64,000 nucleotides of DNA from Labilibaculum sp. DW002 (GTDB lineage Bacteria > Bacteroidota > Bacteroidia > Bacteroidales > Marinifilaceae), in assembly GCF_029029525.1 (NCBI RefSeq), contig NZ_JAKJSC010000001.1:434001-498000 (forward strand), given 5' to 3'. The position numbers and the translations under genes were made by a program. The notes under the pieces were generated by a model. The model was not told where the DNA came from. It did not search any database and saw nothing but the letters and a program-made list of their open reading frames with translations. Below, one piece after another: positions 12,424 through 58,450 of the stretch. Position 1 is the first letter of the stretch. Each line of letters starts with the position of its first letter.

Positions 12424-12444
12424 ATCTATCTTATTTATTCGTTA

Positions 12445-25074: not shown

Positions 25075-25084
25075 TATTATTTTT

Positions 25085-34633: not shown

Positions 34634-36184
34634 TTACTTTAATTCTATTTTTTCGATGTTCGAATAGTCTTTTCCTCGCACCGCTTCAAAACGAACAATC
34701 ATTTCATTCAACTTCTCTTTATTAGAATCGGCTAAATTATTCTTTTGCCCGATATCCTCTTTCAAATTATACAATTGATATTTTAAAGAGTTTCCTAATT
34801 CGATATTCACATACTTATTTACTGCTGGCCCTTTATATGGTGGAATCATTATCCAGTCCCCTTTCCTAAATGCAGTTCGGCTTGTTGCTTCAATTATCAA
34901 TTCTTCTCTACCGACGTTATGCTCTCCAATAAAAGTATTCAATATATTTTCACTATCCGGACCTCTCATTTCAATATCCACTAAGGCAGCTATTGAAGAA
35001 ATCAGATCTATTTGACAAATCAATGCATCCGATACTCTTGGCTCAATTTCACCTTTCCAAAAGGTAATAAATGGCACACGTGTTCCCGCTTCAAACAGAC
35101 TATATTTTCCACCCCTAAGTGTGCCTGAAGGTGTATGAACACCATTTTTTTCAACAGCATCATCGTGGTAACCATCATTCAAAACAGGACCATTATCACT
35201 CGTAAATACAATCAATGTATTTTCTAACAATTCTTCTTCTCTTAAAGTTTTCATAAACTCTCCAATACACCAGTCTGCCTCTAAGATCACATCTCCACGA
35301 GGTCCCATGCCTGATTTCCCTTCAAATCGAGGATGTGGCGTACGGGGAACATGAGGTTGTTGCATGGCATAATAAAGAAAGAAGGGTTCATTTTTATGTG
35401 CTTTTAAATATTCCTGTGCTTTTCCAAGAAAATGATCCGCCATATCCACGTCACTCCACTTAGCTGTTTCACCACCTTTCATAAATCCAATACGTGGAAT
35501 GCCATTTATAATACTATTGTTATGCCCATGGTGCCATTTCAAACTTAGTAATTCTGGATTTTCCTTTCCAGTTGGCTCTCCTTCGAAATTCTGCTTATAG
35601 CTTATCTCAATAGGATCATTTGGATCCAGATTATCGACATAACCATTATTGATATAGACCGTTGGTACACGATCTTGTGTTGCAGCCATAATATATGCAT
35701 CATCAAAACCAAGTTCGTTAGGCCCAGGAACAACACGCTGGTTCCAATCCACATCTCCAGTTCCCAAACCAAGATGCCATTTTCCTACAATTCCAGTATG
35801 GTAGCCTTGTGATTTTAGCATTTTTGGAATTGTCATCTGAGAAGTATCGATTAACAAGGGTGCACTTCCCGGTAATATTTTAGCATTTTTATTCCGCCAA
35901 GGATATTCACCAGTAAGCAATCCATATCTACTTGGAGTGCAAGTAGAGGAAGTTGCATAAGCATTGGTGAATCGAACACCTCCATTTGCCAAAGCATCAA
36001 TATTTGGTGTCACTAATTCTGTTGCTCCATAAGAACTAAGATCTCCATATCCCAGATCATCAAGATATATTATCACAATGTTTGGTTTCTTTTCTGTTGC
36101 TGCTTTCTGTTTATTTCCAGATTGGCATGCTACAAGCAACCCTATTATTATAACTGGTAATAGTAGCTTAATAAATTTTCCCAT
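34634..36184 (-). CDS. S1-family arylsulfatase lipoprotein
   Basis: The 516-residue lipoprotein (lipobox LVAC, Cys20) is a type I sulfatase. YLDDLGYGD (40-48) supplies metal-binding Asp residues. STCTPSRYGLLTGEY carries the C-x-P-x-R motif at Cys82-Arg86, where Cys is converted to formylglycine by a maturase not in this window. GKWHLG and FTSDNGP with LRGGKYSLFEAGTR follow in the expected order. It would remove sulfate esters from a galactan or another sulfated glycan. It is the last gene of the region 3 operon, 38 bases after the GH2 gene. I do not assign an S1 subfamily. Confidence 0.95.
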   Translation of the reverse strand: MGKFIKLLLPVIIIGLLVACQSGNKQKAATEKKPNIVIIYLDDLGYGDLSSYGATELVTPNIDALANGGVRFTNAYATSSTCTPSRYGLLTGEYPWRNKNAKILPGSAPLLIDTSQMTIPKMLKSQGYHTGIVGKWHLGLGTGDVDWNQRVVPGPNELGFDDAYIMAATQDRVPTVYINNGYVDNLDPNDPIEISYKQNFEGEPTGKENPELLSLKWHHGHNNSIINGIPRIGFMKGGETAKWSDVDMADHFLGKAQEYLKAHKNEPFFLYYAMQQPHVPRTPHPRFEGKSGMGPRGDVILEADWCIGEFMKTLREEELLENTLIVFTSDNGPVLNDGYHDDAVEKNGVHTPSGTLRGGKYSLFEAGTRVPFITFWKGEIEPRVSDALICQIDLISSIAALVDIEMRGPDSENILNTFIGEHNVGREELIIEATSRTAFRKGDWIMIPPYKGPAVNKYVNIELGNSLKYQLYNLKEDIGQKNNLADSNKEKLNEMIVRFEAVRGKDYSNIEKIELK

Positions 36185-36221: not shown

Positions 36222-39555
<3,334 letters not shown>

Positions 39556-39572
39556 CACTTTTATTAATTATT

Positions 39573-41792
39573 TTATTTTTTCTGATATACTCTCACGTAA
39601 TCAACTGTATATTCCCTAGGAAAATTAGTTTCCGAAGGATCTCCTCCATTTGCTCCAATAGCCAAGTTAAGCAGAATGTAATGTTCCTGATGAAATGGAT
39701 TAAAACCATCGGAATTTATTGTTTTACTCAAATCTATCTCATTCAACAATTTATCATCTAAATAAATTCGAATATACTCTTCAGTCCAGTCCATTTTCCA
39801 TATGTGAAACTTATCTGCCCAGTCTTTTTCTTTTTCGGTGAACTTCTGGAAAACTATCTTCTCGGAATCCCAAACCGCATTATTTTCGGCATTGGCCCAA
39901 GCAGCATTGGCAAATATCTTGGCCTTCCCTTCGTGACGGTAGAATTCCATTAAATCGATCTCACCATTGGCTGGCCATTTCTGATCTACTCCTAATGTCC
40001 ATATGGCTGGCCACATGCCCATACGAGTATCAATTTTGGCTCTCACTTCCAATACGCCATACTGGAAACTGAATTTATCTTTTGTCTTGATACTCGAAGA
40101 AGTATATTCCGCTTGCTTTCTATTTACTCGCCAATTCTTACTTTTCCTTTTGTATTCAGGGTTCTTTACCTGTTCCTTTCTACCTTCAATTACGAGTGCC
40201 CCATCGCGTACATTTGCATTGGCTGATTGATACCATTGCAATTCATTATTTCTGACAAAGCCTGCTTCGTAAGACCATTTTTCTGAATTTGGTTTTCCAT
40301 CCTGATCAAACTCTTCTGCCCAAAGCAATTCATAGCCTTCAGGCACTTGTGCACCACGTGTATCCACTTTAAAAGGACTGACCATTTTAAATCTTTCAGG
40401 GTGAAGTTTATTGTACTCTTTTCCCCTCATTAAACCTAAAAAGACAGGATCTTTCATTTCATCTTCCCAAGATTGATATCCTGACTTCAGATCAGAATAA
40501 TAATTCTCATCACTTAAGGCAAGTGAATTCTTTTCACTTATATCCTCATCCAAGTTGTAGATTTCATCTGTGACTGATTTATATCTTACCAATTTGTGAT
40601 CTCCACATCTGGTAGCATACGCCTTCTGATCATATTTACGCCAAAACAATTGTTCATGAGGTTGTCCTTTTTTCTCTCCATTTACATATGGTAGCAAATT
40701 AACCCCATCAAGCTTGTTTTTCGGGCTTGCTTTCGCATAGACTACAGCTGTAGCAAAAATATCGAGTGAACTTACCGGATTGTGATATACTGCCCCTGCG
40801 GGGATTTCTTTTGGCCATTGAACGGCAAATGGCACATGAATTCCTCCTTCGTACAAACTGCCTTTCCCATCTCTCAATTCACCATTTCCTGATGCATTAT
40901 GATGTTCTGGCCCCCCATTATCCGACAAAAAGAAAACAATCGTATTTTCATTAATTCCCAATTCCTCTAACTTATCCAAAACCCTTCCAACACCATCGTC
41001 CACAGCACTCACCATGGCAGCATAGACTTTTCTCTTCTTGTTGTTGATATGCGAAAATCGCTTCAAATATTTCTCCGTTGCTTGTAAAGGCGTATGAGGT
41101 GCATTATATGCTAAATACATAAAAAAGGGCTTATCGGCCTTACGTTCAATAAAGGAGACTGCTTCACGACTTAAAGCATCTGTTAGGTATTCTTTTTCAT
41201 CAACTCTGCCATTGTCCCGCATCAAACGGGTATTGTAAGCATCAAACTGAGCTTCTATTTCACTTACATCATTTAAGGTCCATTCGTCTGGGAAATATTT
41301 ATGCCCGCCGCTTAAAAAACCATAAAATTCATCAAAACCTCTCTTTAATGGATATTGAAATTTATGAGCTCCAAGATGCCATTTCCCCAGTGCGATACTA
41401 GTATATCCAGATTTAGAAAGTGCTTTGGCAATGGTTTCTTCCGACAATGGTAAACCTTGTAAACTATCTTTAGGAGTACATAATGGATTACGCCCAAAAC
41501 CAAAACGGTCTTGATAACGTCCTGTAATAATTCCCGCTCTACTTGGTCCGCAAACGGCATAAGTAACGTAAGCATTGGTAAATTTCACACCATTTTTAGC
41601 AATTCTGTCAATATTTGGAGTTGGTATATCCGTACAGCCATTGAACCCAACATCACCATATCCTTGATCGTCGGTAAGAATTACAATAATATTTGGTTTC
41701 TGTTGTGCTTTTAACGGTTTTGTGTTAGGCAAACATCCTGCAAACAAGATCAATCCTGTTATCAGGAAACTATTTATGTTTCTATGCATCAT
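39573..41792 (-). CDS. sulfatase-GH16 fusion lipoprotein
   Basis: The 739-residue lipoprotein (lipobox FAGC, Cys20) joins two enzymes. Residues 33-460 are an S1 sulfatase: LTDDQGYGD (39-47), AVCGPSRAGIITGRY with formylglycine motif Cys81-Arg85, GKWHLG (136-141) and LSDNGG (289-294). Residues 485-739 are a GH16 beta-jelly roll with the catalytic motif GEIDLMEF (Glu611 nucleophile, Asp613, Glu616 acid/base), preceded by MGMWPAIWTLG and followed by the family's closing IDYVRVYQ-like strand. No stop or frameshift lies between them. GH16 includes endo-beta-1,3-glucanases, endo-beta-1,3-galactanases, agarases and porphyranases. With the GH43 and GH2 neighbours an endo-galactanase is favoured. The fusion would couple desulfation and backbone cleavage on one surface protein. 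Confidence 0.93.
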   Translation of the reverse strand: MMHRNINSFLITGLILFAGCLPNTKPLKAQQKPNIIVILTDDQGYGDVGFNGCTDIPTPNIDRIAKNGVKFTNAYVTYAVCGPSRAGIITGRYQDRFGFGRNPLCTPKDSLQGLPLSEETIAKALSKSGYTSIALGKWHLGAHKFQYPLKRGFDEFYGFLSGGHKYFPDEWTLNDVSEIEAQFDAYNTRLMRDNGRVDEKEYLTDALSREAVSFIERKADKPFFMYLAYNAPHTPLQATEKYLKRFSHINNKKRKVYAAMVSAVDDGVGRVLDKLEELGINENTIVFFLSDNGGPEHHNASGNGELRDGKGSLYEGGIHVPFAVQWPKEIPAGAVYHNPVSSLDIFATAVVYAKASPKNKLDGVNLLPYVNGEKKGQPHEQLFWRKYDQKAYATRCGDHKLVRYKSVTDEIYNLDEDISEKNSLALSDENYYSDLKSGYQSWEDEMKDPVFLGLMRGKEYNKLHPERFKMVSPFKVDTRGAQVPEGYELLWAEEFDQDGKPNSEKWSYEAGFVRNNELQWYQSANANVRDGALVIEGRKEQVKNPEYKRKSKNWRVNRKQAEYTSSSIKTKDKFSFQYGVLEVRAKIDTRMGMWPAIWTLGVDQKWPANGEIDLMEFYRHEGKAKIFANAAWANAENNAVWDSEKIVFQKFTEKEKDWADKFHIWKMDWTEEYIRIYLDDKLLNEIDLSKTINSDGFNPFHQEHYILLNLAIGANGGDPSETNFPREYTVDYVRVYQKK

Positions 41793-41803
41793 ATCTAATA
41801 CAA

Positions 41804-43465
41804 TTATTTTAATTCTATGGCACCCATGTCAGGAAGACCTTCAATTCTATTACCTAAAATATCATGTTTTAGCTGTAATCCAATTGATAAACCAATGCTG
41901 TCACTAGGGATTTTATGTATCTCAATTCCTTTGTTTTTAATCAAATTTGAATTAAGAGGCATATAATCCACTATTTTGTCTCCACCTACATTAGCAAAAT
42001 CAGGATTCCCAATGATTGCTCGATCATCTTGTATCGGTAGTTCCTTTGGCCAATTGTTATTTCTCAGGAATAGATTATTCTGAAAAATCAGGTTTTTAAT
42101 AGTCGTTTCACCCTCCTTTTCAGGATTGTATTGATCACCTAAAACTGCCTTCGATTTTCCTTCTATAAAAAAAATGTTGTTGGCAATCAAAACACCCGAG
42201 GCAGCCTTATCGATGGCAATTTTTGTCAGAATGTCCTGCTTCACATACATTGTATTGTTGTAGAAATAGGAATTGTAAGGTCCTCGTCTCTTTCTCTTGC
42301 CATTATAACCACTCAGCCAAAACAGTTTACCTTCCTGAAAAGCGCCGTTCTTTCCTTTTATACGATAACCATCATTCACACTAATATTATAGCGATAGGC
42401 ACAATTGTAATTATTCCCAAGTATTTCACAAAAGCCACCTGCATTGTTGGCGGTGAAATTGTATTGCAAAACTACATTGTTACAATTATAATCGATATGT
42501 GCACCGGCAGAGTCACCAGGTCCCTTTGCATTTAAAAAGTGATTCTTTTCAATCAATATATCTTTGGACCCCCATGTCCATAAACCGCTTCCTCGTCCCC
42601 ATTTTCTGGTATCATCATGACTTCCTGATCGGTTCACCTTATTGTTTCGGACAATTACATTTTTCACACCCGACATTTGAATTCCAGGACCTCCTGTTTC
42701 CAATACTTTATTATTTTGAATACTGATATTTCGAAGACTATAATTTATGGAATTCCCTGTAAACTTAATCCCAGTATGAGCCACATTTTTAACGAGACAG
42801 TCTTCAATTTTAATATCCTCCACGAAAGCTCCGTCGATTGCAGTAATAAAGCGGATTCCCCAGCCATAATTCTGTGATCCGTTTGCGGTTTTCACTTCTT
42901 TGGCTCCTCTTACAAATCCTTTTTCTTCGTAAAACACATCAACCACAAGTAGATTATTAAGGTAGATGTGTTTGTAATTTCCACTTTTACTCAGTTTCAC
43001 AAGAACGCCACATCGCATTTGTTTCTTCTGCTTTCTATAAGGTGAAGAAAAGCCTCCATTTGCTGTGATTTTAATATTTTCAAGTTCGATAAAACTGCAA
43101 TTCTCCAATAGAATCCCATTCAAACAGCCTTTGGCGTCAATCTCTGCCTTATGATCGTTAATATCATTACCGGATTGATAGCTTGTTATCACAATTGGCT
43201 TTTGCTGATTGCCATGAACATTCTTTAATTCCAGCGATCCATAAAAAGTACAATCTGAAGCTAGCAATAGACTATCTCCTTGAGATAATTTTAGAGAACC
43301 CAAGCTATTCAGGCTTTTAAAGGGGGAATGAATCTGGGCCCCTGAGTTAGCATCATTCCCCGTTTTTGCATTCACATAGTAGGTTTCAGCCATTATTTCT
43401 GATCCTGAAACAATTAGTAAAACAAGTAATATAATCTGTATACTTATTCGCATCTGTCTTCTCAT
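41804..43465 (-). CDS. right-handed parallel beta-helix protein, secreted
   Basis: The 553-residue protein has a signal peptide (cut near MAE-TYYV) followed by the YYVNAKTGNDANSG and SPFKSLNSL opening typical of secreted beta-helix (Beta_helix, pectate-lyase-fold) proteins. Repeated N-x-I/V-x-x-N coil motifs run through the chain (LRNISIQNNKVLETGGPGIQ, VIVRNNKVNRSGSH). The fold is used by polysaccharide lyases and several GH families, so it is probably a carbohydrate-active enzyme. I see no motif that fixes the family or catalytic residues. It lies 3 bases after the upstream sulfatase gene and 11 bases before the sulfatase-GH16 gene, so it is surely co-transcribed. It is a candidate for a new activity. 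Confidence 0.85.
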   Translation of the reverse strand: MRRQMRISIQIILLVLLIVSGSEIMAETYYVNAKTGNDANSGAQIHSPFKSLNSLGSLKLSQGDSLLLASDCTFYGSLELKNVHGNQQKPIVITSYQSGNDINDHKAEIDAKGCLNGILLENCSFIELENIKITANGGFSSPYRKQKKQMRCGVLVKLSKSGNYKHIYLNNLLVVDVFYEEKGFVRGAKEVKTANGSQNYGWGIRFITAIDGAFVEDIKIEDCLVKNVAHTGIKFTGNSINYSLRNISIQNNKVLETGGPGIQMSGVKNVIVRNNKVNRSGSHDDTRKWGRGSGLWTWGSKDILIEKNHFLNAKGPGDSAGAHIDYNCNNVVLQYNFTANNAGGFCEILGNNYNCAYRYNISVNDGYRIKGKNGAFQEGKLFWLSGYNGKRKRRGPYNSYFYNNTMYVKQDILTKIAIDKAASGVLIANNIFFIEGKSKAVLGDQYNPEKEGETTIKNLIFQNNLFLRNNNWPKELPIQDDRAIIGNPDFANVGGDKIVDYMPLNSNLIKNKGIEIHKIPSDSIGLSIGLQLKHDILGNRIEGLPDMGAIELK

Positions 43466-43468
43466 TTT

Positions 43469-44884
43469 TTAGTTGTGAATGGTACTTTGTAAATCAGAAG
43501 GTGAATTAATTAAGGATTTCCTGTTTTCCATCAAAGCTTTGTGAATTTCAAAGGTCACCTGATTCCAGTCTTTATCTTCTGTCCACAAAGGAGTCATCAG
43601 TCCTTTCTCCCAGTCTTCAAGGGCAAGTATCATTTTCTGGTACTGTACAATTTCATTTTCATGCAAATCTTTGGTCTCTCCAAGATCTTCACCCAAATTA
43701 TAAAGTCGATAACCATAGCCATCTACTCTGATCAACTTCCATTTGCCATCGCGAACTGCTGCCATACCTTCTTTGCGCCAAAACAACTGCTTGTGAGGTT
43801 CTCCTTCTATATTCTGAGTAATATAAGGCAATAGATTAGTTCCATCCAATACTTTCCCTGGAGATTTCTCCTGTCCAGCAACTGCTATTGATGTGGCAAA
43901 AATATCTAATGATGAAGTCAAGCCATCGTAGCTTTGACCAGCCTTAATTTCTTTGGGCCATGTCATCACAAAAGGCACACGATGTCCTCCTTCAAATTTG
44001 TTCCCTTTCCATCCCTTTAAGGGTAAACAGGATGATTGATTATTATGAGCACCACCATTATCGCTTAAGAAAAAGATGAGTGTATTTTCATACAGATTTT
44101 CCTTCTTTAATTTAGCTACGACCTTGCCAATGGCTCTATCCATAGCCCAGGTCATAGCTGCTAAATCCTGACGTGCATGGCCTTCATATCTTTTCAAATC
44201 CTCTTTGGTAGCATGCATTGGTGTATGCACTGCGTTAAAAGAAAGATAAACGAAGAATGGATTCTCCTTTTGTGCATCAATATATTCAACAGCCTTATCT
44301 CCAAGCACGTCAGTTAAATACCCTGTAAATTCAACATGCTTGCCATTGTGTTGGATCTCGTGTGGATCACCCGGTCGATCATTCATTTTATGTGGGAAAT
44401 AAGATCGGCCTCCTTCTAGGAATCCATAAAATTCATCGAACCCACGCTGATTAGGTTGATATTGTGCCTTTTCTCCTAAATGCCATTTCCCAAATCCCGC
44501 TGTTTGATAGCCCTGTAGTTTCATAGCAGAGGCAATGCTTACTTCACTAGTATCCATACCCAAATTGTGAGGTGGGATATTGCATTCATGCCCAAATCTT
44601 TGTTGATATCTACCTGTAAGCAGGCCCGCTCTGGACGGACTACAAACAGTAGCTGACACATGAGCATCAGTAAAAATAACTCCAGCACTAGCCAGTTTAT
44701 CGATATTTGGGGTTTCCAGATCTGAACTTCCCATAAAACCGAAATCGGCATAGCCTGCATCATCAGCTAGGATAACAATTACATTAGGCTTTTCTAACTG
44801 GGTATTATTTTTTTTCTGTTTACAAGCACTTGTCATTAAGGCAAGCATTGCAAAACCAATCAGTATTGAATGTTGAAAATTCAT
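43469..44884 (-). CDS. S1-family sulfatase lipoprotein
   Basis: The 471-residue lipoprotein (lipobox TSAC, Cys21) is a type I sulfatase. ILADDAGYAD (38-47) gives the metal site, ATVCSPSRAGLLTGRYQQRFG carries the formylglycine motif Cys81-Arg85 in its first part, and GKWHLGEKAQY and FLSDNGG follow. It resembles the sulfatase half of the downstream fusion protein, which has the same GRYQ-x-RFG wording, and may be a paralog. It lies in a tight group with the beta-helix protein, and the two probably act on the same sulfated glycan. A small hairpin lies upstream of it (44916-44936). Confidence 0.95.
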   Translation of the reverse strand: MNFQHSILIGFAMLALMTSACKQKKNNTQLEKPNVIVILADDAGYADFGFMGSSDLETPNIDKLASAGVIFTDAHVSATVCSPSRAGLLTGRYQQRFGHECNIPPHNLGMDTSEVSIASAMKLQGYQTAGFGKWHLGEKAQYQPNQRGFDEFYGFLEGGRSYFPHKMNDRPGDPHEIQHNGKHVEFTGYLTDVLGDKAVEYIDAQKENPFFVYLSFNAVHTPMHATKEDLKRYEGHARQDLAAMTWAMDRAIGKVVAKLKKENLYENTLIFFLSDNGGAHNNQSSCLPLKGWKGNKFEGGHRVPFVMTWPKEIKAGQSYDGLTSSLDIFATSIAVAGQEKSPGKVLDGTNLLPYITQNIEGEPHKQLFWRKEGMAAVRDGKWKLIRVDGYGYRLYNLGEDLGETKDLHENEIVQYQKMILALEDWEKGLMTPLWTEDKDWNQVTFEIHKALMENRKSLINSPSDLQSTIHN

Positions 44885-44971: not shown

Positions 44972-45982
44972 TTAATCAATACTCCATTCCTTCTGCCATT
45001 CGATTTTTGCTTTTCCATTTTCAAATGTTAAGGGGAGCCATACATATCGAGAATCTTCCAAATTGGTTTTGTTCCATCTATCTCCCATATAGATATACTC
45101 ACCTTTCCTATTTGGATTTGGCAAGACGTAAGTACTTTGCGAGAAATAAGTTTTCTTTGAATTCTGCCCAACACAAGGATCGTAAACAGTTTTCCAATTG
45201 CCCATAACAGAATCACAAATGGATATTTGAGCAGGGTTAGGCGACCAGCCAGTACAACCCGATGATATCATATAATATTTCCCTTCATGCTTCCAAACTG
45301 CTGGTGCTTCACGCGATTCCATTTCTAAAATTCGTTTAAATGTACCTGATGGTGCCGTATATTCATCATTCAATAAGCTGACATGCATGGTTTTATTATT
45401 CTCCGAAGAATAAAAATGATAAGCTTTTCCATCTTCATCCTTAAAAAGAGTCAAGTCTCTACTCATAGCTCCATTGGGGCGCATGCTTTGTATGTACGTG
45501 TAAGGCCCTTGTGGATTATCACTAATGGCAACACCCGCTCTGGCATACTGATAATCCTCTGAGTCAATGTGCATCCACATAACAAACTTTTGTGTTTTAT
45601 CGTTGTAGATAACTTTAGGTCTCTCAATTACTTTAGATGTATGTAAATCATGAGTTGTATCAGCCTTCACAGCTGTTAATGCTACCCCTTCATTCTTCCA
45701 GTTTACCAAATCTTTCGATGAATAACAATTAACACCTCCAGCCTTACACCTGTAGCACTCCCATTCTAAATAAGGCACGCGCCAAGTTTCTCCTTGTTTT
45801 ATTTCACCATACCAATAATAGGTTCCTTCATGCAAAAGAATTCCTCCTCCATGTGCATTTATTGGATTTCCGTCTGTATCCTTAAAAATTTCTCCTGCTT
45901 GAATTTTAGCATTTTCTGTTTCTACACATGAGAACAAAGTAAAAATCATTCCTATAATCAATCCTATTCTGCCAATACTCAT
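44972..45982 (-). CDS. GH43 exo-beta-1,3-galactanase-like lipoprotein
   Basis: The 336-residue lipoprotein (lipobox FSC, Cys19) has a five-bladed propeller with INAHGGGILLHEGTYYWYGE (41-60), the opening of GH43 subfamilies 24 and 34, in which the usual blade I catalytic Asp is absent. IERPKVIYN (Glu120), SREAPAVW (Glu225) and TYFSQSTYV (Gln282) line up in order and spacing with what I recall of the fungal exo-beta-1,3-galactanase (Glu102, Glu208, Gln263), where a Gln takes the place of the base. The likely reaction is release of galactose, or substituted galactose, from beta-1,3-galactan ends. It is the best pointer to the substrate of region 3. A beta-galactofuranosidase-type activity is an alternative. 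Confidence 0.85.
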   Translation of the reverse strand: MSIGRIGLIIGMIFTLFSCVETENAKIQAGEIFKDTDGNPINAHGGGILLHEGTYYWYGEIKQGETWRVPYLEWECYRCKAGGVNCYSSKDLVNWKNEGVALTAVKADTTHDLHTSKVIERPKVIYNDKTQKFVMWMHIDSEDYQYARAGVAISDNPQGPYTYIQSMRPNGAMSRDLTLFKDEDGKAYHFYSSENNKTMHVSLLNDEYTAPSGTFKRILEMESREAPAVWKHEGKYYMISSGCTGWSPNPAQISICDSVMGNWKTVYDPCVGQNSKKTYFSQSTYVLPNPNRKGEYIYMGDRWNKTNLEDSRYVWLPLTFENGKAKIEWQKEWSID

Positions 45983-46052: not shown

Positions 46053-47432
46053 TTATTCCTTTTCCTTTATCAACACATTATCTACATAGAAAGGAGGCAT
46101 TGCAGGATCAGTTTTTCCTTTGTACAACAAAAAACGAACACTAGATATACCTTCAGGACATGTAAACTCTGTTTTATTTTCCACCCATTCAGTATCTTTT
46201 GGAATATCTAGTGAATGCAAAATAGCCTTTGCACCACCTTCTTCTTTAATTTTCATTGCAAATGAATGGTCAGTAGCTTCATCCCACTTGCTATAGAAGC
46301 TAATTTCATAGGATTTACCAGCTTCCACAGAAATAATCTGATAAATTGAACCATCATTATTTTCAATACGTCCGCAATAGCCACCAGTATGGGTATCAGT
46401 AGTAGCTTCACCTACTGTTGCCGATTTAAAACCAGCCCATGGTTCAAACTCACCTGTTTCAAATGTTCCATTCACAATGATATTGTTAGGATCTTCATCA
46501 ATCACTTCAATAGGCTCATCATAACCAGCTCCAATATTTTCATTAGGGTCAAAATTTGCATAATACTCGCCAAGAGCAGTTAATTGATCATTTTCATCGA
46601 AAAGAATTGATGAAGTCAAAGGTGCATCCTCTGGTTTAGCATTATACCAGGCATAACGATGAACATAGCTTAATCTATCAAGTTGAGGAAGTACCTCCTT
46701 CATAAAACTTAAAACCTGAGTCGCTGTGTATTTATTTTCAGCTGGACTTGTGGCATTCCAATCACCAACTGCAAATTCTGTAATCCAGATTGGTTTCCCA
46801 TACGTATCGTAGGCCTCTTTAACTTTAGCTAAAAAAGCATCAACATTAAGACCACCATAACTATGCATACAAACAAAATCAACGCGCAATTCTTTTGCTT
46901 CAGCTTTGCTCATAAAATCCTTTAGCCACTCACTTTCCGATGGATTACCTACTACAGCAGGACTACCGAGAGGTACGCCAACAGTTTCTAATTTAGTCCA
47001 TAAATCGATGGCTTGATCAACCGTCATATTGGCTTGTTTCTCACTATCTGGTTCATTAAAACCAAGCAAATACCTTATTTTACCATCAGATTTCAATTGT
47101 TTGAGATAAGCGAGGGTTTCATCTTCAACATTTTTCCCCCAAAACATAGGCACATAATCGACATTCGTTGGTTCATGTTCTTTCAATTCATTTCCCCATG
47201 AATAATGCCAATGTGCTTTTAACCTTGAGATACGAGTGGACCATGTTGTGTTGTTATATGACATACATGATCCTTTTTTGTTCTCGATTACAGGTTCTTG
47301 AACAGGAGTTTCTTCGTCGTCAGGTATTATATCATCCTCAACTGACTCACTATCACATGAAGCAAATAATGCCAATGCGATAAACAGAAAGAAATATTTC
47401 CTTAATGGGGACTTTATATTTTTAGTGATCAT
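46053..47432 (-). CDS. GH128-like glycoside hydrolase with C-terminal carbohydrate-binding domain, lipoprotein
   Basis: The 459-residue lipoprotein (lipobox FASC, Cys26) has an acidic linker (about 27-50), then a (beta/alpha)8 barrel of the Glyco_hydro_cc/GH128 type. YLLGFNEPD (121-129) gives Glu127 as acid/base, MHSYG lies at 189-193, and IWITEFAVGDW (215-225) gives Glu219 as nucleophile. From about residue 313 a beta-sandwich begins (NGTFETGEFEPWAG), like CBM4/9-type binding modules. Characterised GH128 enzymes cut beta-1,3-glucans. Here it is the first gene after susD in a locus otherwise suited to a sulfated galactan. Either the glycan contains beta-1,3-glucan-like parts or this protein has another specificity. 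Confidence 0.87.
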   Translation of the reverse strand: MITKNIKSPLRKYFFLFIALALFASCDSESVEDDIIPDDEETPVQEPVIENKKGSCMSYNNTTWSTRISRLKAHWHYSWGNELKEHEPTNVDYVPMFWGKNVEDETLAYLKQLKSDGKIRYLLGFNEPDSEKQANMTVDQAIDLWTKLETVGVPLGSPAVVGNPSESEWLKDFMSKAEAKELRVDFVCMHSYGGLNVDAFLAKVKEAYDTYGKPIWITEFAVGDWNATSPAENKYTATQVLSFMKEVLPQLDRLSYVHRYAWYNAKPEDAPLTSSILFDENDQLTALGEYYANFDPNENIGAGYDEPIEVIDEDPNNIIVNGTFETGEFEPWAGFKSATVGEATTDTHTGGYCGRIENNDGSIYQIISVEAGKSYEISFYSKWDEATDHSFAMKIKEEGGAKAILHSLDIPKDTEWVENKTEFTCPEGISSVRFLLYKGKTDPAMPPFYVDNVLIKEKE

Positions 47433-47688: not shown

Positions 47689-49233
47689 TTAGAGCCAAAC
47701 TGAATGTTGTTCTAATTCAGAATTTACATCTATTTCTGATTGTGGAATTGGCCATATAAGTTGTTGGGGGCCTAACCAGTATCTATCGCTTAACTTACTA
47801 TTATTAGCTCTTTCATTTGCCATATAATAATCAATGGCACGCTCTTTAAGAATTCCCCATCTTTTTAAATCAATATAACGAAGTCCTTCAAAAGCTGTTT
47901 CAATTCTGCGTTCATGACGCACCATATCAACTAAGCTTCCACCAAAGTGATTATCTACTTCAGCTTGATCAACATGTGGCATTTGCACACTTTCACGATC
48001 GCGTAACTGATTGATCAAAGCAAATACCTCAGTAGCTGATGCTCCGCTTTCAGCAAGAGCTTCGGCTCTCATCAGAAGAACCTCTCCCAAACGAAACACA
48101 TAGAAATCTTCTTCAGCATCAAAGTGATTCTCACTGTTATCTTCTTCCATGTATTTACGCTGAGCATAACCCGTTCTGGTTTTTTTGTAAGTATCAAAGG
48201 GAACTCCTCTCCATACCGAACCCTTACTTACTATCGAGGCATCAAAACGTGGATCTCTATTCTTTGATGGCACTGCTGAATTAAACAAATCAGACTCGAT
48301 AATCATCTTACCGTCGGTACAGTAATACTCATTTGCAAGATTAGGCAATACTTCCTCGTAATTTTTTAAAGCTGTACCCCAGTAACCCGCAAAATTAGCG
48401 CCGTCCTCATCAGGACCTCTCATAAAACGAACAGGGAAAATCACTTCGTCGTTAATTTCATTAGCATTTTGAAAAAGATCCTGAAAATTAGGATATAAAG
48501 AATAACCCAAATCAATTACTTTCTGAGACCAGCTTGCAGCTTCCGTCCAATTCTCATTATACAAATTGATTCTAGCAAGGAGTGCATAACCAGCTCCTTT
48601 GGTTGCTCTTCCCCATTCAGTATCCCCTGGCATTGCCAGATCCTCAACACATGATTCCAAATCCGTTAATATAAAATTAACAATTTCAGATTTTTGTGAA
48701 ACAGGAGTTTCCGCCTCTTCAACAGATTGAAGTTTAGTAATTAATGGTGCATTTTCAAAGGTCATGCTCATTAGGTTATAAACCAAGGCTCTTAAAAATT
48801 TTGCCTCTGCAATAATCTGTTTGGAATTTGTTTCAGAAATAACCTCAACACCTAAAGTAGGTACTGTTTCAATTACACGATTGCATCTAACAATTGACTT
48901 GTAACAATTCTGCCAAAAATACTTCACCAAATCATCTGTAGTAGAATGCTCACCTCGAGACATTGCTCCTCCTTGCATCCAGCCCCAACGTACCCAACCG
49001 TCGTCTGTCATATAATCCCAACGGACAGTACCTCCTGCCCAAGGATCCGAATCATAAATATTTGCACTCTGTAAATTTGAGTAGCATCCAGCCAATGCCA
49101 TTTCTGCATCCGCCTCAGTAGTCCAAAAATTTTCATCCGCCAATGCGGTTAACGAATTTCGATCAAGGTACTCATCCGAGCATCCAGCCAAAAAAATCGT
49201 TACTAAAAATAATATTGAATATATTCTGTTCAT
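47689..49233 (-). CDS. SusD/RagB-family glycan-binding lipoprotein (sulfatase PUL)
   Basis: The start is placed at 49233, where MNRIYSILFLV opens a lipoprotein signal (lipobox LAGC). The in-frame ATG at 49266 would overlap susC and add 11 polar residues. The 514-residue protein has the SusD pattern: SDEYLDRNSLTALADENFW, AEAKFLRALVYNLMSMTF, GYALLARINLYNENW, VLLMRAEALAESG and the C-terminal RHERRIETAFEGLRYIDLKRW (motif given in parts, near residues 445-465). It is 19 bases after susC. It should bind the sulfated glycan at the cell surface with its SusC partner. Confidence 0.95.
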   Translation of the reverse strand: MNRIYSILFLVTIFLAGCSDEYLDRNSLTALADENFWTTEADAEMALAGCYSNLQSANIYDSDPWAGGTVRWDYMTDDGWVRWGWMQGGAMSRGEHSTTDDLVKYFWQNCYKSIVRCNRVIETVPTLGVEVISETNSKQIIAEAKFLRALVYNLMSMTFENAPLITKLQSVEEAETPVSQKSEIVNFILTDLESCVEDLAMPGDTEWGRATKGAGYALLARINLYNENWTEAASWSQKVIDLGYSLYPNFQDLFQNANEINDEVIFPVRFMRGPDEDGANFAGYWGTALKNYEEVLPNLANEYYCTDGKMIIESDLFNSAVPSKNRDPRFDASIVSKGSVWRGVPFDTYKKTRTGYAQRKYMEEDNSENHFDAEEDFYVFRLGEVLLMRAEALAESGASATEVFALINQLRDRESVQMPHVDQAEVDNHFGGSLVDMVRHERRIETAFEGLRYIDLKRWGILKERAIDYYMANERANNSKLSDRYWLGPQQLIWPIPQSEIDVNSELEQHSVWL

Positions 49234-49252
49234 AATATTTGCATTTTTTTGA

Positions 49253-52200
49253 TTAGAAAGTGACATTTAAACCAAGAGAATAAACTTTGGATTGCGGATA
49301 ATCCCTGTTGCGATCATCACCGGTAAGTTTCTCTGGATCATAATCATCCACATCCGTTTTTGTCCATAAATTTACACCTGAAAAATAGATGCGTGCATTC
49401 TCAATATGCATTTTCTTCGTTAGCTCTGATGGTATTGTATAACCAACTTCAAGGTTTTTCAAACGCAAATAAGAAGCATCTTTCAACCAAAATGTAGAAT
49501 ATTTTGTGTTGTTCGCAAGGTTACCCCATCTAGGAGTTGGAGCGTTACGATTCTCTTCTGTCCAATAATCCAAAGCTACATCCGTAAGTGTTCCACTGGT
49601 TTCGGTATTGTACCAATAGTAACGGTCTATTCCTGAAATTCCCTGGAAGAATGCGTATACGTCAAATCCTTTATAGCTTGCACCCAGATTGAACGAGTAT
49701 TGTAATTTAGGAAATTTGTTACCGATAATAGTACGATCATAATCAGCAGAAATTTTACCATCAGGAGTTCCATCAGGACCACTAATATCACGATATTTTA
49801 CATCCCCAAGACGTAATGGTTTCCCAAATTGCGTAGGCGCATTATCCAACTCTTCTTGCGACTGATAGTATCCATCTGCAATAAATGCATAATAGGATGA
49901 AATTGCTTCTCCTTCTTTGGTGATCGCGTTGTTGCTAATGGATTCCAATCCACCATAATTTGTCACTTCATTCTTTACGTGGGTTAGGTTGAAACCACCA
50001 AATACGTTGAAGTCTCCAAATGTTTCATTCATTTTCACGTCAATTTCCCAACCTGTGTTTTTCACTTCTCCAACATTTTGGAAAGGAGCGGATACATTCC
50101 CAAGAGTAGTTGGAATAGGCAAACGAACTAGAATATCTGAACTTGTTTTATCAAACCAATCGGCAACAATTTGAATTTTGTTTTTGAACAAATTTATATC
50201 TACTCCAATATCAGTAATTGTTGTTGTTTCCCATGTAAGATTCGAATTCGCCAAACTTGTAACAGCAACACCAGGAGCGATGTTATTACCCCATAAGTAA
50301 TTTTGTCCTGTTCCAATTGTTTGTGCATAAGGATAAAAATTACTGCCTCCAATATTTTCATTACCCAATTGTCCCCAACTTCCTCTTACTTTTAAGAAAG
50401 AAAGCGGCCCAAAATCAGATAAAAAATTCTCATTACTTGCAACCCAACCTGCAGAAACAGATGGGAATCCACCCCAGCGATTGTCTGAACTCATGCGAGA
50501 GGTTCCATCGTAACGGTAATTCGCTTCAATAAGGTATTTATCTGCAAAGTTGTAATTAACCCTTCCGAAGAAAGAGTTCAAAGCCAACTCTCTGGCAGAT
50601 CCACTTACATCTTTGTTATTGATTCCACCATTCAGCTCATGAATGTTATTATTCGGAAAATCTTCTACTGATGCCTCAAAAAAGTCAAGTCTAAACAATC
50701 TTGAAGATTGTCCTGCTAATACTCCAATTTTATGATTTTCATTAAGCGTTACATTATAAGTTAACAGGTTCTCAATCTGATATCTTTTTGTAGTCTGATT
50801 GTTGTTAATAAGCTTATTATGCACATTTTCATTAATTACATTTCCTTCGACATCATAGGTTTCGTAGGTTGGCGTAAATTTCGAAAGCAAGGATGAATTA
50901 TACACATATGAAAAATTTGGCTTAAAATGTAAGTTTTTCAAAATCTCCACATCAGCAAAAATCTTTCCTGTAAAATTGTATTTCTCTGTTATATTTTCAC
51001 CTCTATTAGCTAATTCAACTGGATTTTTTATGCCTCCAACCGTACTACCTGGTAAATAGTAAAGTCCATTAACCTGTCCCCAGTTTCCATTGGAATATTT
51101 AACCGGAATAGTTGGGTTTGCAAAACGACGAATAATGTAGTTGATATCCTGATCCCCATTAGATGAACTTGCATTGTTCAAAGTTTCCTTAACATCCCTT
51201 TTATTTCCAGAAAGATTCAATCCAATTGTTACACGATCTGAAAGGTCAACACTAATGTTTGATCTGAAATTATATCTCTTCTGACCCGTCTTAATCATGG
51301 TACCATCCTGATTAAGATATTCTCCTGAAAACATGTAACGAACATTTTCCTTTGAACCACTTACCGATAAATAAGTTGTATTCATTGGTGCTGTTCTGTA
51401 CATTTCATCAAACCAATTTGTATTGGCCCAACGATCAGGATCTGTCCCATCTCTCATCATCTGAATTTGCTCATCAGTATAAAGTGCATCCTGTCCTTGT
51501 TCTGTTAAATCCAGATTCTGAATGCTTGCATAATCCCATGAATCAACAAAATTTGGCTCTACAAGAGCTTGTTGCCATGCAAAAGACTGACGTAGGCTAA
51601 CTTTTGGTTTTCCACTTTTTCCTTGTTTGGTGGTAACTACAATCACACCATTTGCAGCACGAACTCCATAGATCGCAGCTGAAGCCGCATCCTTTAAAAC
51701 AGAGAGACTTTCAATATCAGCAGCCGGTATTTGACTTAATGAAGATTCAACACCATCAACGATTACCAATGGTTCCTGCCCTGCATTCAAAGTACCAATA
51801 CCACGAATACGAATCTGTGGATTATCTTCTCCAGGTTGATTACTGAAATTACTCACAGTCACACCACTCATTTGCCCTTGCAATAATGATGCAGTGTTAG
51901 CTGCCGGTCGAGTTTCAAGATTGCCAAAATCAACAGACGAAACAGCACCTGTTAGATTGGCTTTCTTTTGAGTGCCATATCCAACAACAACCACTTCATT
52001 CATTCCAATTGATTCTTCAAGCATCACTGCATCTATAATAGGATTAATTCCTACAATAAATTCCTGATTGGTAAAACCGATGAAGCTAAATACCAAAACA
52101 TCCTTGTTTTCTGCTTTAATAGAATAATTACCGTCTATATCGGTAACCGTACCATTGGTGGTTCCTTTGACCACAATGTTTACTCCGGGGATACTCAAAC

Positions 52201-52312
52201 CGGAATGATCCGTAACCTTACCGCTTACTGTTAATTGTTGCGCGTTCGCTGCCCCAACAATTAATAACAGCATCACGATAAGAAGACTAAGTTTTTGCAT
52301 AATTCTTTTCAT
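49253..52312 (-). CDS. SusC/RagA-family TonB-dependent transporter (sulfatase PUL)
   Basis: The 1019-residue protein has a signal peptide ending ANA-QQ, a carboxypeptidase-regulatory-like domain (VNIVVKGTTNGTVTDIDGNY), a TonB-box region (EVVVVGYGTQKKANLTGAV) and a plug with IRIRGIGTLNAGQEPLVIVDG in its first part and LKDAASAAIYGVRAANGV. The beta barrel ends SLGLNVTF. It imports oligosaccharides released outside. Its closest neighbours are an HTCS gene upstream, on the same strand, and susD downstream. A 289-base intergenic region with C-tract boxes and an inverted repeat precedes it. Confidence 0.97.
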   Translation of the reverse strand: MKRIMQKLSLLIVMLLLIVGAANAQQLTVSGKVTDHSGLSIPGVNIVVKGTTNGTVTDIDGNYSIKAENKDVLVFSFIGFTNQEFIVGINPIIDAVMLEESIGMNEVVVVGYGTQKKANLTGAVSSVDFGNLETRPAANTASLLQGQMSGVTVSNFSNQPGEDNPQIRIRGIGTLNAGQEPLVIVDGVESSLSQIPAADIESLSVLKDAASAAIYGVRAANGVIVVTTKQGKSGKPKVSLRQSFAWQQALVEPNFVDSWDYASIQNLDLTEQGQDALYTDEQIQMMRDGTDPDRWANTNWFDEMYRTAPMNTTYLSVSGSKENVRYMFSGEYLNQDGTMIKTGQKRYNFRSNISVDLSDRVTIGLNLSGNKRDVKETLNNASSSNGDQDINYIIRRFANPTIPVKYSNGNWGQVNGLYYLPGSTVGGIKNPVELANRGENITEKYNFTGKIFADVEILKNLHFKPNFSYVYNSSLLSKFTPTYETYDVEGNVINENVHNKLINNNQTTKRYQIENLLTYNVTLNENHKIGVLAGQSSRLFRLDFFEASVEDFPNNNIHELNGGINNKDVSGSARELALNSFFGRVNYNFADKYLIEANYRYDGTSRMSSDNRWGGFPSVSAGWVASNENFLSDFGPLSFLKVRGSWGQLGNENIGGSNFYPYAQTIGTGQNYLWGNNIAPGVAVTSLANSNLTWETTTITDIGVDINLFKNKIQIVADWFDKTSSDILVRLPIPTTLGNVSAPFQNVGEVKNTGWEIDVKMNETFGDFNVFGGFNLTHVKNEVTNYGGLESISNNAITKEGEAISSYYAFIADGYYQSQEELDNAPTQFGKPLRLGDVKYRDISGPDGTPDGKISADYDRTIIGNKFPKLQYSFNLGASYKGFDVYAFFQGISGIDRYYWYNTETSGTLTDVALDYWTEENRNAPTPRWGNLANNTKYSTFWLKDASYLRLKNLEVGYTIPSELTKKMHIENARIYFSGVNLWTKTDVDDYDPEKLTGDDRNRDYPQSKVYSLGLNVTF

Positions 52313-52601: not shown

Positions 52602-55600
52602 CTAGTTTTCAAAGCTTTGCCTATATTCCGACGGAGAACTCCCGAACATATCCCGAAAACATTTGCGAAAATATTTTAAGTCAGAAATACCAACTTGAAC
52701 AGAAATCTCCGCAATCGATTTATGTGGATCAGCTAATAACTGAGCCGCTCTTTTCAATCGAATCGATCGGATAAAAATATTAGTTGACATTGTAGTCAAT
52801 TCTTTTAATTTACGATATAGAGTCGAAGTACTCATATTTAGAGAAGATGCGAATACTTCCGCACTAAAATTATGATCGTGCATACGTTCTTCTACAATTT
52901 TTACTGCCTTATTCAGGAACTCCTCTTCATAGGAAGAAATTTCAACATTAGTCGGTTCCAATTTCACCTTTTTGCTAAAAGAATCTCTTAGTATTTTCCT
53001 ACTTTGTAGCAATGTATGTATCTGAACCAATAATTCTTCGGTGTTAAACGGCTTCGTAATATAGGCATCAGCACCAGTTGTAATTCCCTTTATTTTAAAC
53101 TGATCTGCTGTTTTAGCTGTTAAAAGAATTACCGGAATGTGAGCTGTTCGTTCTTGTTTTTTTACTTTCTCGCACAATTCGAATCCATCCATACCCGGCA
53201 TCATCACATCAGAAATAATTAAATCCGGTAAGCTTTGCATACTATTTGCGTAGCCTTCTATCCCATCAAATTTCTGTATTACATCGTAATCATCCTGAAG
53301 AAGACTTGCAATATAATTATTAATTTCTTCCTGATCTTCAACAACTAGTATAGTCTTTTTATCACCTTTCGTTTTTTTGACATGCTCCTTTACTCCTACT
53401 GTATCCTCGTTCAATTTAATAAAATCTTTACGTGACTCTTCACACACAAAATCAGTAATAATTTGATCTTTAGAAAAATGCTCTCTCCCCAGCAAGAGAT
53501 CAATAGCAAATACAGTTTCAACATCCCGAGTACTCGCAACAGAAATAGTTCCCTTATGAAGTTCTACAATCCGTTTGGTGAGTGCCAAGCCAATTCCTGA
53601 ACCCCCTGTTGCTCGATTCAACGTGCTGTCAACCTGATAAAATCTGTCGAAAATACGTTTGAGCTCAGATTGCGAAATTCCTTTACCATTATCCCTTACT
53701 TCAATTCTAGCAGTTTTTTCTTGCTTAATTAGCATTACCGATATTTCTCCATATTTAGGAACATACTTAAATGCATTGGATAGCAAATTATTCATCACGA
53801 TGCCCAATTTTTCAGCATCAAACCACAACATCATTTGACTGGCTTCTGAATGGAAAGAAAGTTTTATTTGATTGCTCTCAGCCAATCCTCTAAAGGCATT
53901 AACTTCCTGTTTCATAAACCTAATCAAATCCAATTTGGACGCACACATTTTCATTTTGCCAGTCTCAGCTTTTCTAAAATCAAGCAACTGACCAACCAAG
54001 CGAAGTAAACGTTTAGAATTCTGCTCAATTATCTGTAGCTTTTTCTTTCCTGCAGACGAAATATTTTCGACTGACAATAATTCTTGAACAGGCGCTACAA
54101 TAAGCGTCAAAGGTGTTCTAAATTCATGTGATATATTGGTGAAAAATTGTAGTTTCATTTCATTTATTTCTTGAGCCTGATCACCCTTTACTCTCTCTAA
54201 TTCAATAGTGTGGGCCATTCTACTTTGCCGAACTGCCACCCACCGAATCAAAGCAACTAATCCTAATGCAATTAAAATATAAATCATAATAGCCCACCAC
54301 GATTTCCAGGGGGCAGGAATAACTATTATCTGAAGACGCACAGGCTCTTCATTCCAATTATTGTGATTGTTGGAAGACTTCATCTCAAAAACATATTTAC
54401 CAGCACGCAATTGATTATAAGTTACCATTCTATTAGTACTAGAATAATTCCAGCGGTCATCATAATTTAACAAGCGATAGGCATAATTGTTTCGTTCAGG
54501 CGCATCATAGCCCAAAGCCGAAAAAATAAGACTGAACTCCCTCTCGCGATGCGTTAATACTAATTTTTGAGTGTAACTGATATCCTCATCAAGAATCACC
54601 CGCCCATGCAGTTCTTCTCCTGGAGCTACCTTCTTATTGTGCATACTCAGACTAATGATAGCCGGCTCGGGTAGGTTTTGATTATCCTGAATTTTATTAG
54701 GTTGAAAATAGTTAAAACCACTCGCCCCTCCGAAATAGATTTCCCCTACTGAATTTTTAAATGCACAATCTTCTGAAAAACTTCGTCCTTGCAAACCGTC
54801 GCTTTCATCGTAATTCTTGAAGCTTCTGTTCTTTGGGTCAAAACGTGCAACTCCACAATTGGTACTTATCCACAACTTATTCTCATCATCGCTTACCAGT
54901 GCATGTATGTAATCATCTGGCAGGCCATCTTCCTGGTGAAAATGTTCAATTTGAAAAGTTCCAGATTCTGCTTCTGTCAACAAATTCAATCCACTCGGAG
55001 TTCCAATAAAAAAGGTGCTGTCGTTTAGCTGACACCAAGATAAAATAATATCACTGGTCAGTTTTTGATTTTTTACAAACCTCAAAGATGCAAACGTTTC
55101 CATCTTATCATCAAAGAAATAAAGCCCCTTATAGGAACCAACCCATATTCTATTCTGATTATCAGCCCGAATAAATGAAATTCTCTCGTTTTGAAGAATC
55201 GAATCATTTCCTGGGACATATTGCTTCCAATTTTCATCCGGATTATCGATTTGCTTCCCTAACCAAAGGCCATTCTGTTGCGTTCCAACAAATAAAATAC
55301 CCTCCTTTTCGAACAGCGATAAAATTTTTCTAATTTCTTCCTTCTCTGTAGTAATTTTATTCTTTAAATAGTATTTCCCATTTTGAAAAACCAATTGATG
55401 TAAACCATAATTAGTTCCTACCCACTTGGTACCATCCGAAGATTCATAAATGCATTTCACGACCTTAAAGTCGGGTCCATTGGTATCAGCGCTCAAATTA
55501 TCAACCTCTATAAAATGCAGGCGATCTTTTGAATAATACAACCCACCTCCTTTTGTGCCGATCCAAACATTTGCATCTTCATCTTCGATTATTGTCAGTA

Positions 55601-56944: not shown

Positions 56945-58450
56945 CTATGGTTGATATTCTGGATTTAGCATTGGCATTTTAGCATGAATTTCCTCTCGCC
57001 ATCGATGCAACTTACTTTTTAAGTCGAGCACAATTTTCGGATATTTATTAGCTAAGTTAACTCGTTCTTCCATGTCGTCCTGCAAATCATACAACTCAAC
57101 GTGCATGTCTTCATAAAACTCAATAAGTTTATATTTTCCGCTGCGAATAGCGCCACCTGGTCTGCCTCCTTGATTACTATAATGGGGATAATGCCAATAA
57201 ATAGCATCTCGTATTAAACTATCCTGATCTTGCAATAAAGGAACTAAACTTATTCCATCTGGATGCTGTTGAGGCAAGGCTTGTAAACCTACCACATCAA
57301 GTATTGTCGGATAGAAATCGGCACTAGTAACGGCTGTTTCACAAACACTTCCTCTTTTCGTAATTCCATTCCATTTAACAATTAAAGGTTCACGTATTCC
57401 TCCCTCATACAACCATCCTTTTCCTCCCCGTAAGGGTAAGTTTGAAGTTGGTGAACCTTCCGAGGTTGATAGACCTCCATTATCCGAGGTAAAAATGATT
57501 AGGGTATTGTCATCCAAATTCAATGCTTTAATTTGTTGTAATAACCTGCCAATATTTTCATCCATGCTCTCTACCATAGCAGCATAGACAGCATGATCTT
57601 GAACCAATCTCTCCCTAAATCTACCTTTACCAAATACATTTTTCAACTCAGAACGATCTACAAACCGATCTTCCTTATTTATCCCTAATTGCTTTGCTTT
57701 CTTTCTGTATTTCTCGATTACTTTTGGTTTTGCATTCAAAGGATTGTGAACCGTATAATAAGACAAATAAAGGAAAAAAGGGTTCTTTTTATTGTCTTTA
57801 AGAAAATTTATGGATTCATCCGTTAATCGATCAGTTAAATACTCTCCTTCTGGTCCATCTTGTAATCGTGGATTCAAATACGGACTAAAATAACCTCCTT
57901 TAGGTGATCCAACCTTCCAACCTCCTTTATTTATATCAAACCCCTGATATTCCGGCCAATAAGTCGACCCCTCACCCAAATGCCATTTACCCGCAAAAAA
58001 AGTTTTGTAGTTATTATCTTTTAGAGCTTCCGCAACGGTGTATTCTTCAAGACTCATCTCTTCTTTAAAATCCTGAGGTAAGAGTTTTTGTCCTGAAGTG
58101 GCCGCATGTGTAGCCTGTCTTCCAGGAATCCAATCTGTTATATCTAGACGTGCAGGGTATTTCCCGGTAAGAATGCTTGCTCGAGTTGGTGAACATACCG
58201 GACAAGAAGCATAAGCATTGGTGAACTTTATCCCCTCTGATGCCAAAAGATCCAAATTTGGTGTTTCATAAAAGTCTGACCCATAACATGCAAGATCCGA
58301 CCATCCTAGATCATCAACAAGAATAAAAACAATATTTGGTGGATTTTTACTATTCTTAGTTTTACTATAAACTATTTCAGATTTTGCCAATAATCCAAAA
58401 CACATTAAAAGTCCAAGAAAACAAGAGATTTCTTTTTTAAAAAAATTCAT
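56945..58450 (-). CDS. S1-family sulfatase, secreted
   Basis: The 501-residue protein has a signal region (hydrophobic core about 8-24) and type I sulfatase motifs: ILVDDLGWSDLACYGS (43-58), PVCSPTRASILTGKYPARL with formylglycine motif Cys86-Arg90, DWIPGR, FAGKWHLGEG and FTSDNGG. LRGGKGWLYEGGIREP follows. The ARLDITDWIPGR wording is frequent in Bacteroidota sulfatases of the iduronate-2-sulfatase-like group, but substrate cannot be derived from it. It is monocistronic by the look of its terminator and has C-tract boxes 113-141 bases upstream, so it may be co-regulated with the PUL by the HTCS. Confidence 0.94.
   Translation of the reverse strand: MNFFKKEISCFLGLLMCFGLLAKSEIVYSKTKNSKNPPNIVFILVDDLGWSDLACYGSDFYETPNLDLLASEGIKFTNAYASCPVCSPTRASILTGKYPARLDITDWIPGRQATHAATSGQKLLPQDFKEEMSLEEYTVAEALKDNNYKTFFAGKWHLGEGSTYWPEYQGFDINKGGWKVGSPKGGYFSPYLNPRLQDGPEGEYLTDRLTDESINFLKDNKKNPFFLYLSYYTVHNPLNAKPKVIEKYRKKAKQLGINKEDRFVDRSELKNVFGKGRFRERLVQDHAVYAAMVESMDENIGRLLQQIKALNLDDNTLIIFTSDNGGLSTSEGSPTSNLPLRGGKGWLYEGGIREPLIVKWNGITKRGSVCETAVTSADFYPTILDVVGLQALPQQHPDGISLVPLLQDQDSLIRDAIYWHYPHYSNQGGRPGGAIRSGKYKLIEFYEDMHVELYDLQDDMEERVNLANKYPKIVLDLKSKLHRWREEIHAKMPMLNPEYQP

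Follow-up and report, generated by a model that had tools for sequence, protein, structure and literature searches.

A predicted S1_19-type sulfatase joined to a GH16 domain on one chain, encoded in a candidate sulfated beta-1,3-galactan locus of Labilibaculum

Sulfate groups represent a main obstacle to the microbial breakdown of marine galactans, and a natural enzyme combining 4-O-desulfation with cleavage of the backbone would reveal how the two steps are coupled in bacteria. A gene that may encode such an enzyme is located on the minus strand, at positions 39573..41792, of the window analyzed here, i.e., a stretch of 64,000 nucleotides from the genome of Labilibaculum sp. DW002 (G000; contig NZ_JAKJSC010000001.1, positions 434,001 to 498,000). 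The locus raises the question of whether a sulfatase and a GH16 hydrolase are indeed joined on one chain, which glycan they attack, and whether the join couples the two activities.

The gene consists of one open frame with an ATG start that encodes 739 amino acids. The encoded protein comprises a signal peptide (aa 1-29; 41706..41792) with a possible lipobox, LFAG-C20; an S1 sulfatase domain (aa 31-470; 40383..41702), placed nearest to subfamily S1_19 by sequence and fold comparison; a short linker of 11 residues (aa 471-481; 40350..40382) with an [S/N]-P-[F/Y]-x-x-D-like pattern that is missing from the C-termini of stand-alone S1 proteins; and a GH16 domain of GH16_3 type (aa 482-739; 39576..40349), as indicated by Pfam, a fold search and its motif residues, all of these parts being encoded on the minus strand. 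Pfam searches of the entire protein returned Sulfatase at residues 33-350 (7.9e-65), SGSH_C at 311-426 and Glyco_hydro_16 at 555-733 (4.5e-17).

A previous reading of the sequence alone had placed both domains in a single frame with intact catalytic sites, and both statements were borne out, including the residue numbering. The formylglycine motif C81-G-P-S-R85 (41538..41552, minus strand) and the GH16 catalytic motif E611-I-D613-L-M-E616 (39945..39962, minus strand) were verified by residue check and ortholog alignment, and the listed S1 and GH16 catalytic residues are invariant in all nine fused sequences, the window copy counted. The sulfatase part exhibits the C-x-P-S-R signature, the GKWHLG motif and the metal Asp/Asn residues, scores over the PF00884 cut-off, and carries the further active-site residues D41/D42, K137, H139, H233, D291/N292 and K310. 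The GH16 part displays ExDxxE on a beta-jellyroll and scores over the PF00722 cut-off, and its tryptophans W594, W598 and W606, the three-Trp hallmark of GH16_3, are likewise invariant in 9/9 fusions. Intact S1 and GH catalytic domains are, in other words, carried on one chain, as in two-enzyme proteins of the P36 type. Compared with two close orthologs, dN/dS amounted to ~0.06 for the S1 part and 0.08-0.14 for the GH16 part (values of 0.000, which reflect saturated dS, being disregarded); these ratios indicate strong purifying selection on both domains, neither of which is decaying. An AlphaFold2 model of the full-length protein (mean pLDDT 94.5, pTM 0.85), in which the linker scored pLDDT 87-92 and residues 1-30 were of low confidence, suggests that the S1 and GH16 domains are held in a fixed mutual arrangement. 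As a separate observation, pS relative to the nearest ortholog (L135) was 0.39 in the GH16 part (39576-40349) and 0.63 in the S1 part, a much lower synonymous divergence of the former that hints at recombination inside the fusion gene.

When the S1 domain was compared with proteins of known structure, the best seven were all S1_19 enzymes, both by sequence (6prm at 6.7e-111; also 6bia and 9hh3) and by fold (Z 53-55, with a drop to 47 for the next group). The domain is, by these comparisons, closest to the S1_19 galactose-4-sulfate sulfatases, i.e., kappa/iota-carrageenan enzymes; this and the GH16_3 call reflect nearest structures and motifs rather than a SulfAtlas or CAZy assignment. Subfamily S1_19 includes the endo-acting S1_19A and the exo-acting S1_19B (PMC6923384), two modes that sequence does not separate for the domain in question, and an exo-acting sulfatase would pair poorly with an endo-hydrolase, which counts against the explanation preferred below.

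The fold search with the full-length model retrieved sulfatases only, and the GH16 domain was therefore modelled and searched by itself. Its best match was 6t2n (Z 31.9, 34% identity), followed by beta-1,3-glucanases (Z 29-31) and then kappa-carrageenases (Z 23-24). Three spaced tryptophans in finger 3 constitute the GH16_3 motif, and 6t2n originates from a study of mucin O-glycanases (PMC7419316); by elimination it is probably Amuc_0724. GH16 enzymes have no conserved way of choosing galactose over glucose (PMC7419316), and a galactan specificity of the present domain rests on gene context, because its closest solved relatives besides 6t2n are beta-1,3-glucanases. Part of that context is provided by the domain's own clade: in seven loci (eight if the cut is relaxed) a member is fused to a GH43_24 exo-beta-1,3-galactanase, and 13 of 80 loci have GH43_24 in the retrieved flanking sequence, which extended up to 6 kb.

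The genes around the fusion supply the remainder. On the same strand, in order of transcription, the window encodes a sulfatase closest to the S1_16 structure 9fo1 (56945..58450), a hybrid two-component system (HTCS) regulator (52602..56672), a SusC-like TonB-dependent transporter (49253..52312), a SusD-like glycan-binding lipoprotein (47689..49266), a Glyco_hydro_cc (GH128-like) catalytic domain with a CBM_4_9 module, both recognized by Pfam (46053..47432), a GH43 whose Pfam and nearest matches place it closest to exo-beta-1,3-galactanases of GH43_24 type (44972..45982), a second, unfused sulfatase that is S1_19-like by Pfam and nearest structures (43469..44884), a right-handed beta-helix protein (41804..43465), the fusion, a LacZ-type GH2 beta-galactosidase scoring over the curated NF052611 cut-off (36222..39467), and a sulfatase closest to S1_15 structures (7ozc; 34634..36184), all on the minus strand. 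The beta-helix protein is, by structure and sequence match, distant kin of lacto-N-biosidase (GH136) structures; it usually adjoins the fusion or its unfused equivalents, the fusion gene beginning 11 bp downstream of it, and it might represent a galactan-active enzyme of which no close relative has been characterized. Just 3' of the fusion gene lies a probable terminator (39493..39556, minus strand; MFE -25.3, z -3.4), which a simple scan with a loop limit of 8 had missed; it consists of a long, strong stem-loop followed by a U-run after the stop codon, and may therefore end that transcript. The locus block is kept with the fusion in three genomes (G029, G019 and G825) and in part in two others (G011 and G824).

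The fusion locus is carried, with other sulfatase/SusCD loci, on an island of ~81 kb (G000:C1 about 411,492-492,982, corresponding to window positions 1-58982 and sequence to the left). This island is missing from a genome of the same species (G833), in which the flanks abut at 99% identity with ~40 bp between them, part of which matches window positions 58872-58935 in inverted orientation; no tRNA gene was found in the window. Elsewhere on this stretch, a PNGase F homolog with both domains (8790-10046) adjoins a SusC/SusD pair (10915-15726) and a GDSL lipase, an arrangement that looks like an N-glycan-release locus. Two proteins with ankyrin repeats and a calcineurin-like phosphoesterase domain (20968-22473 and 25085-26548) flank a serine dehydratase gene and an ORF of 390 aa (23941-25113) for which no Pfam match was obtained.

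Since the neighbours comprise GH43_24, LacZ-type GH2 and S1_19/S1_15/S1_16 enzymes, and since the GH16 clade has its own GH43_24 fusions, the likely substrate is inferred to be a sulfated beta-1,3-galactan of algal or plant origin, for example a green-algal galactan or a sulfated arabinogalactan; the backbone of the sulfated AGP of Codium is such a polymer (PMC8406133). The sequence-only reading had named sulfated beta-1,3-galactans, porphyran and laminarin as glycans to compare; of these, the locus neighbours favour sulfated beta-1,3-galactan over the other two, with laminarin-type activity still a possibility. On balance, the protein is rather likely to be a bifunctional exported enzyme of a sulfated beta-1,3-galactan locus, which would combine S1_19-type 4-desulfation of galactose with a GH16 endo-cut. 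In such a scheme the S1_19-type domain would take the 4-sulfate off beta-D-galactose, and the GH16 domain would be an endo-beta-1,3-galactanase requiring 4-O-desulfated galactose in its cleft; with the domains joined, desulfated sites for cutting would become available locally and in a 1:1 ratio, and degradation of the resulting oligosaccharides would be completed by GH43_24, the GH2 and the S1_15/S1_16 sulfatases.

It is possible that desulfation and cutting are coupled in cis, i.e., that the same chain is desulfated and then cut without release. A stronger form of this idea, in which the S1_19 and GH16 sites are rigidly joined, bind a single sulfated beta-1,3-galactan chain in common and act on it in a processive-like 'desulfate-and-cut' manner, the sulfatase making the site that is cut in cis, is put forward as a speculative reading, with the odds leaning clearly against it. 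If true, it would represent the first S1-endo-GH enzyme, reached at least twice (in Bacteroidota and kin, and in Planctomycetota).

As for where the protein acts, the sequence-only reading had termed it a lipoprotein, a doubtful designation for which the window copy offers the possible lipobox; as a family trait, surface lipoprotein status is contradicted by the signal peptides of the orthologous fusions, 8/8 of which lack that cysteine, several ending in ..AQ. Most orthologs have ordinary signal peptides, which would be consistent with the periplasm or with further export. In the ortholog of genome G550 (L117:526-3819), S1 and GH16 are accompanied by a FISUMP (Fib_succ_major) domain and by a tail for type IX secretion; this implies that the ortholog is exported beyond the periplasm. 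With respect to maturation, the near-complete genome G000 contains more than 20 sulfatase genes; no anSME match over cut-off was obtained in it (TIGR03942), its PF03781 proteins were without the FGE cysteine pattern sought, and its sole SPASM protein is no obvious anSME. No canonical sulfatase maturase was thus detected in G000 by the models tried, so that formylglycine formation at Cys81 is putative, a point against the bifunctional reading.

A search for the same fusion in other genomes, as had been proposed, retrieved it in at least eight other assemblies with the same frame and junction, which also answers the concern that two separate genes might have been read as one. Within the family, full-length fusions without interior stop are encoded by G824 (84% identity), G011 (82%, a one-contig genome) and G029, G019 and G825 (76-77%), the fusion being found in six of 57 family genomes. 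It is also present in an isolate of Marinilabilia rubra (L022), a Sunxiuqinia MAG (L023) and the more distant G550 (56%). At the E-value limits used, no further full-length match was found among 393 genomes sampled from the order, and G550 was the only one of 395 genomes of the phylum with such a match. Judged from this sampling, the S1-GH16 architecture is rare, yet both it and its linker are conserved in several families.

The junction follows a defined pattern. Stand-alone S1 relatives are without the linker motif and stop ~3-10 residues from an [NH]P[DTE]R[FW] tail (the exception being G367, which continues into a beta-helix fragment), and the fusions add a short segment starting with [S/N]P[F/Y] ahead of GH16, whose length and sequence pattern are preserved across 55-86% identity. 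A truncated Balneolaceae contig (L030) starts within a linker of this kind (EPDTSSPSIPEGYELVW) and probably also represents a fusion. Separately, two copies of an S1_19 sulfatase in G367 (L113:8898-10607 and L114:9692-11401) are joined to a small fragment of the beta-helix protein that is normally their neighbour, and these are possibly decaying or alternative fusions.

On the S1 tree, nine of the fusions fall in one 12-row clade (98/96) together with three stand-alone sequences (G210, G367); the fused rows L134 and L135 entered this tree with GH16 attached, the extra columns being trimmed by the fill filter and the row not rebuilt. On the GH16 tree, eight fusions form one clade (100/99) and G550 is placed beside L030, with L030/L036/L105. 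Since the S1 tree and the shared linker group G550 with the main fusions, a single origin with later exchange and two independent origins are both possible for it. A Planctomycetota protein of 1143 aa (L077:4504-7935) has the order S1 (35% identity), GH16 (49%) and a BNR (sialidase-like) domain; its S1 part lies far outside on the S1 tree, and its GH16 part, which belongs to the same GH16 clade as the window domain, groups with other, non-fused sequences. L077 is separate on both trees, and the S1-GH16 arrangement therefore arose at least twice, by which a single origin of all such proteins is ruled out. In the equivalent locus of Belliella (L024), GH16 and S1_19 are two adjacent genes, followed by the beta-helix gene, GH43_24 and another S1; direct read-through of adjacent genes in their present order is likewise ruled out, given that the Belliella order, GH16 then S1, is the reverse of that in the fusion. 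Together with the fused orthologs, the Belliella locus with its two separate genes and the independent fusion of Planctomycetota offer a natural set of comparisons for assessing the benefit of the join.

The principal alternative, quite conceivable though on the whole doubtful, is that both domains act on the same glycan while their sites work independently, the join fixing only stoichiometry, co-export and co-location. The Belliella locus indicates that the pair works as two proteins, close S1 relatives (69% identity in G210) are without GH16, and the GH16 clade, which joins GH43_24 as well, behaves like a promiscuous fusion partner. The conserved linker, ordered in the model, argues against independent sites, as does the recurrence of the S1-GH16 order in Planctomycetota; both suggest that the join itself is selected. 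Less probable, and in our view unlikely, is a laminarin-like substrate, i.e., a beta-1,3-glucan that is sulfated or mixed, with GH16 as a laminarinase: the majority of solved close GH16 relatives are laminarinases, and the GH128-like gene within the locus would suit such a glucan and counts against the galactan reading, but the GH43 neighbour matches exo-beta-1,3-galactanases, the GH2 is a LacZ-type beta-galactosidase, the locus sulfatases match galactose/GalNAc-type subfamilies, and it is GH43_24 to which the GH16 clade is fused elsewhere. GH16 folds have a long glycan cleft, and catalytic folds serving in the manner of a CBM are generally known, which would allow the GH16 part to act mainly as a targeting or binding domain that keeps the sulfatase attached to the chain and hydrolyses weakly or not at all; invariance of the three catalytic carboxylates and three tryptophans in nine fusions, together with low dN/dS, renders this improbable. 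Marginally more improbable still is carrageenan or porphyran as substrate, a notion that draws on the best S1 matches being kappa/iota-carrageenan 4-sulfatases, whereas the GH16 domain scores higher against GH16_3 enzymes (Z 29-32) than against kappa-carrageenases and a non-exhaustive scan of locus genes recognized no 3,6-anhydrogalactosidase-type GH. An assembly or annotation artefact or frameshift join, for which the unfused neighbours in Belliella might speak, is ruled out for practical purposes by the identical frame and junction in independent orthologs from at least eight other assemblies, including the single-contig G011 and the M. rubra isolate.

The preferred reading, that of a bifunctional desulfating and endo-cutting enzyme, may be set beside several known systems. 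That the pairing was not known as characterized agrees with the open-access papers searched, in which no description of an S1-GH16 or S1_19-GH16 fusion was found; CAZy/PULDB may list such hybrids by annotation. The uniqueness of sulfatase-GH joining that this implied does not stand, given that the GH78|S1_25 hybrid P36 of the ulvan pathway of Formosa agariphila has already been characterized (PMC8511951; PDB 6hr5) and that the P36-type hybrid occurs in several marine Bacteroidetes (PMC8511951). The S1_19-GH16 pairing thus appears unstudied, while sulfatase-GH two-enzyme proteins are already known. P36, whose structure was also listed by the fold search with the full-length model, resembles the window protein in having an S1 sulfatase and a GH on one polypeptide, its steps being consecutive in a marine sulfated-glycan pathway. 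It differs in that it joins S1_25 to an exo-acting alpha-L-rhamnosidase active on ulvan oligosaccharides, whereas the window protein, known from its sequence alone, would join an S1_19-like domain to an endo-type GH16 for another substrate; GH16 is of a different fold and family, and not homologous to GH78.

Two-enzyme proteins are also formed by the same GH16 clade in the Bacteroidales GH16-GH43_24 fusions (L038, L049, L051, L055, L056, L064 and L075), in which the partner is an exo-beta-1,3-galactanase rather than a sulfatase. The GH16_3 enzymes compared (6t2n and the beta-1,3-glucanases) share with the window GH16 the fold (Z 29-32), the three-Trp motif and ExDxxE but, unlike the window protein, are without a sulfatase fusion, and mucin-active GH16_3 enzymes showed no activity on those algal galactans that were assayed (PMC7419316).

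If active as proposed, the enzyme would be useful in work on sulfated beta-1,3-galactans and on sulfated arabinogalactans, polymers for which endo-acting enzymes are poorly known. The desulfate-then-cut logic is established for separate proteins (PMC6923384, PMC8406133) and would extend to the fusion by analogy. In Pseudoalteromonas fuliginea, carrageenan is attacked by GH16B only once it has been treated with S1_19A (PMC6923384), i.e., a galactan becomes open to a GH16 endo-hydrolase when S1_19 has removed the galactose 4-sulfate, as is proposed for the window protein; that pair, however, consists of two separate proteins, and its carrageenase GH16 contrasts with the GH16_3-type domain of the window protein. 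In B. plebeius, BpGH43_24 acts on Wi-AGP, a sulfated AGP, only together with BpS1_8 (PMC8406133), so that desulfation is a precondition for cleavage of the beta-1,3-galactan backbone of Codium sulfated AGP by a GH43_24 enzyme; in that system an S1_8 sulfatase and an exo-galactanase are separate proteins, whereas in the window protein an S1_19-like domain and a predicted endo-type hydrolase are fused.
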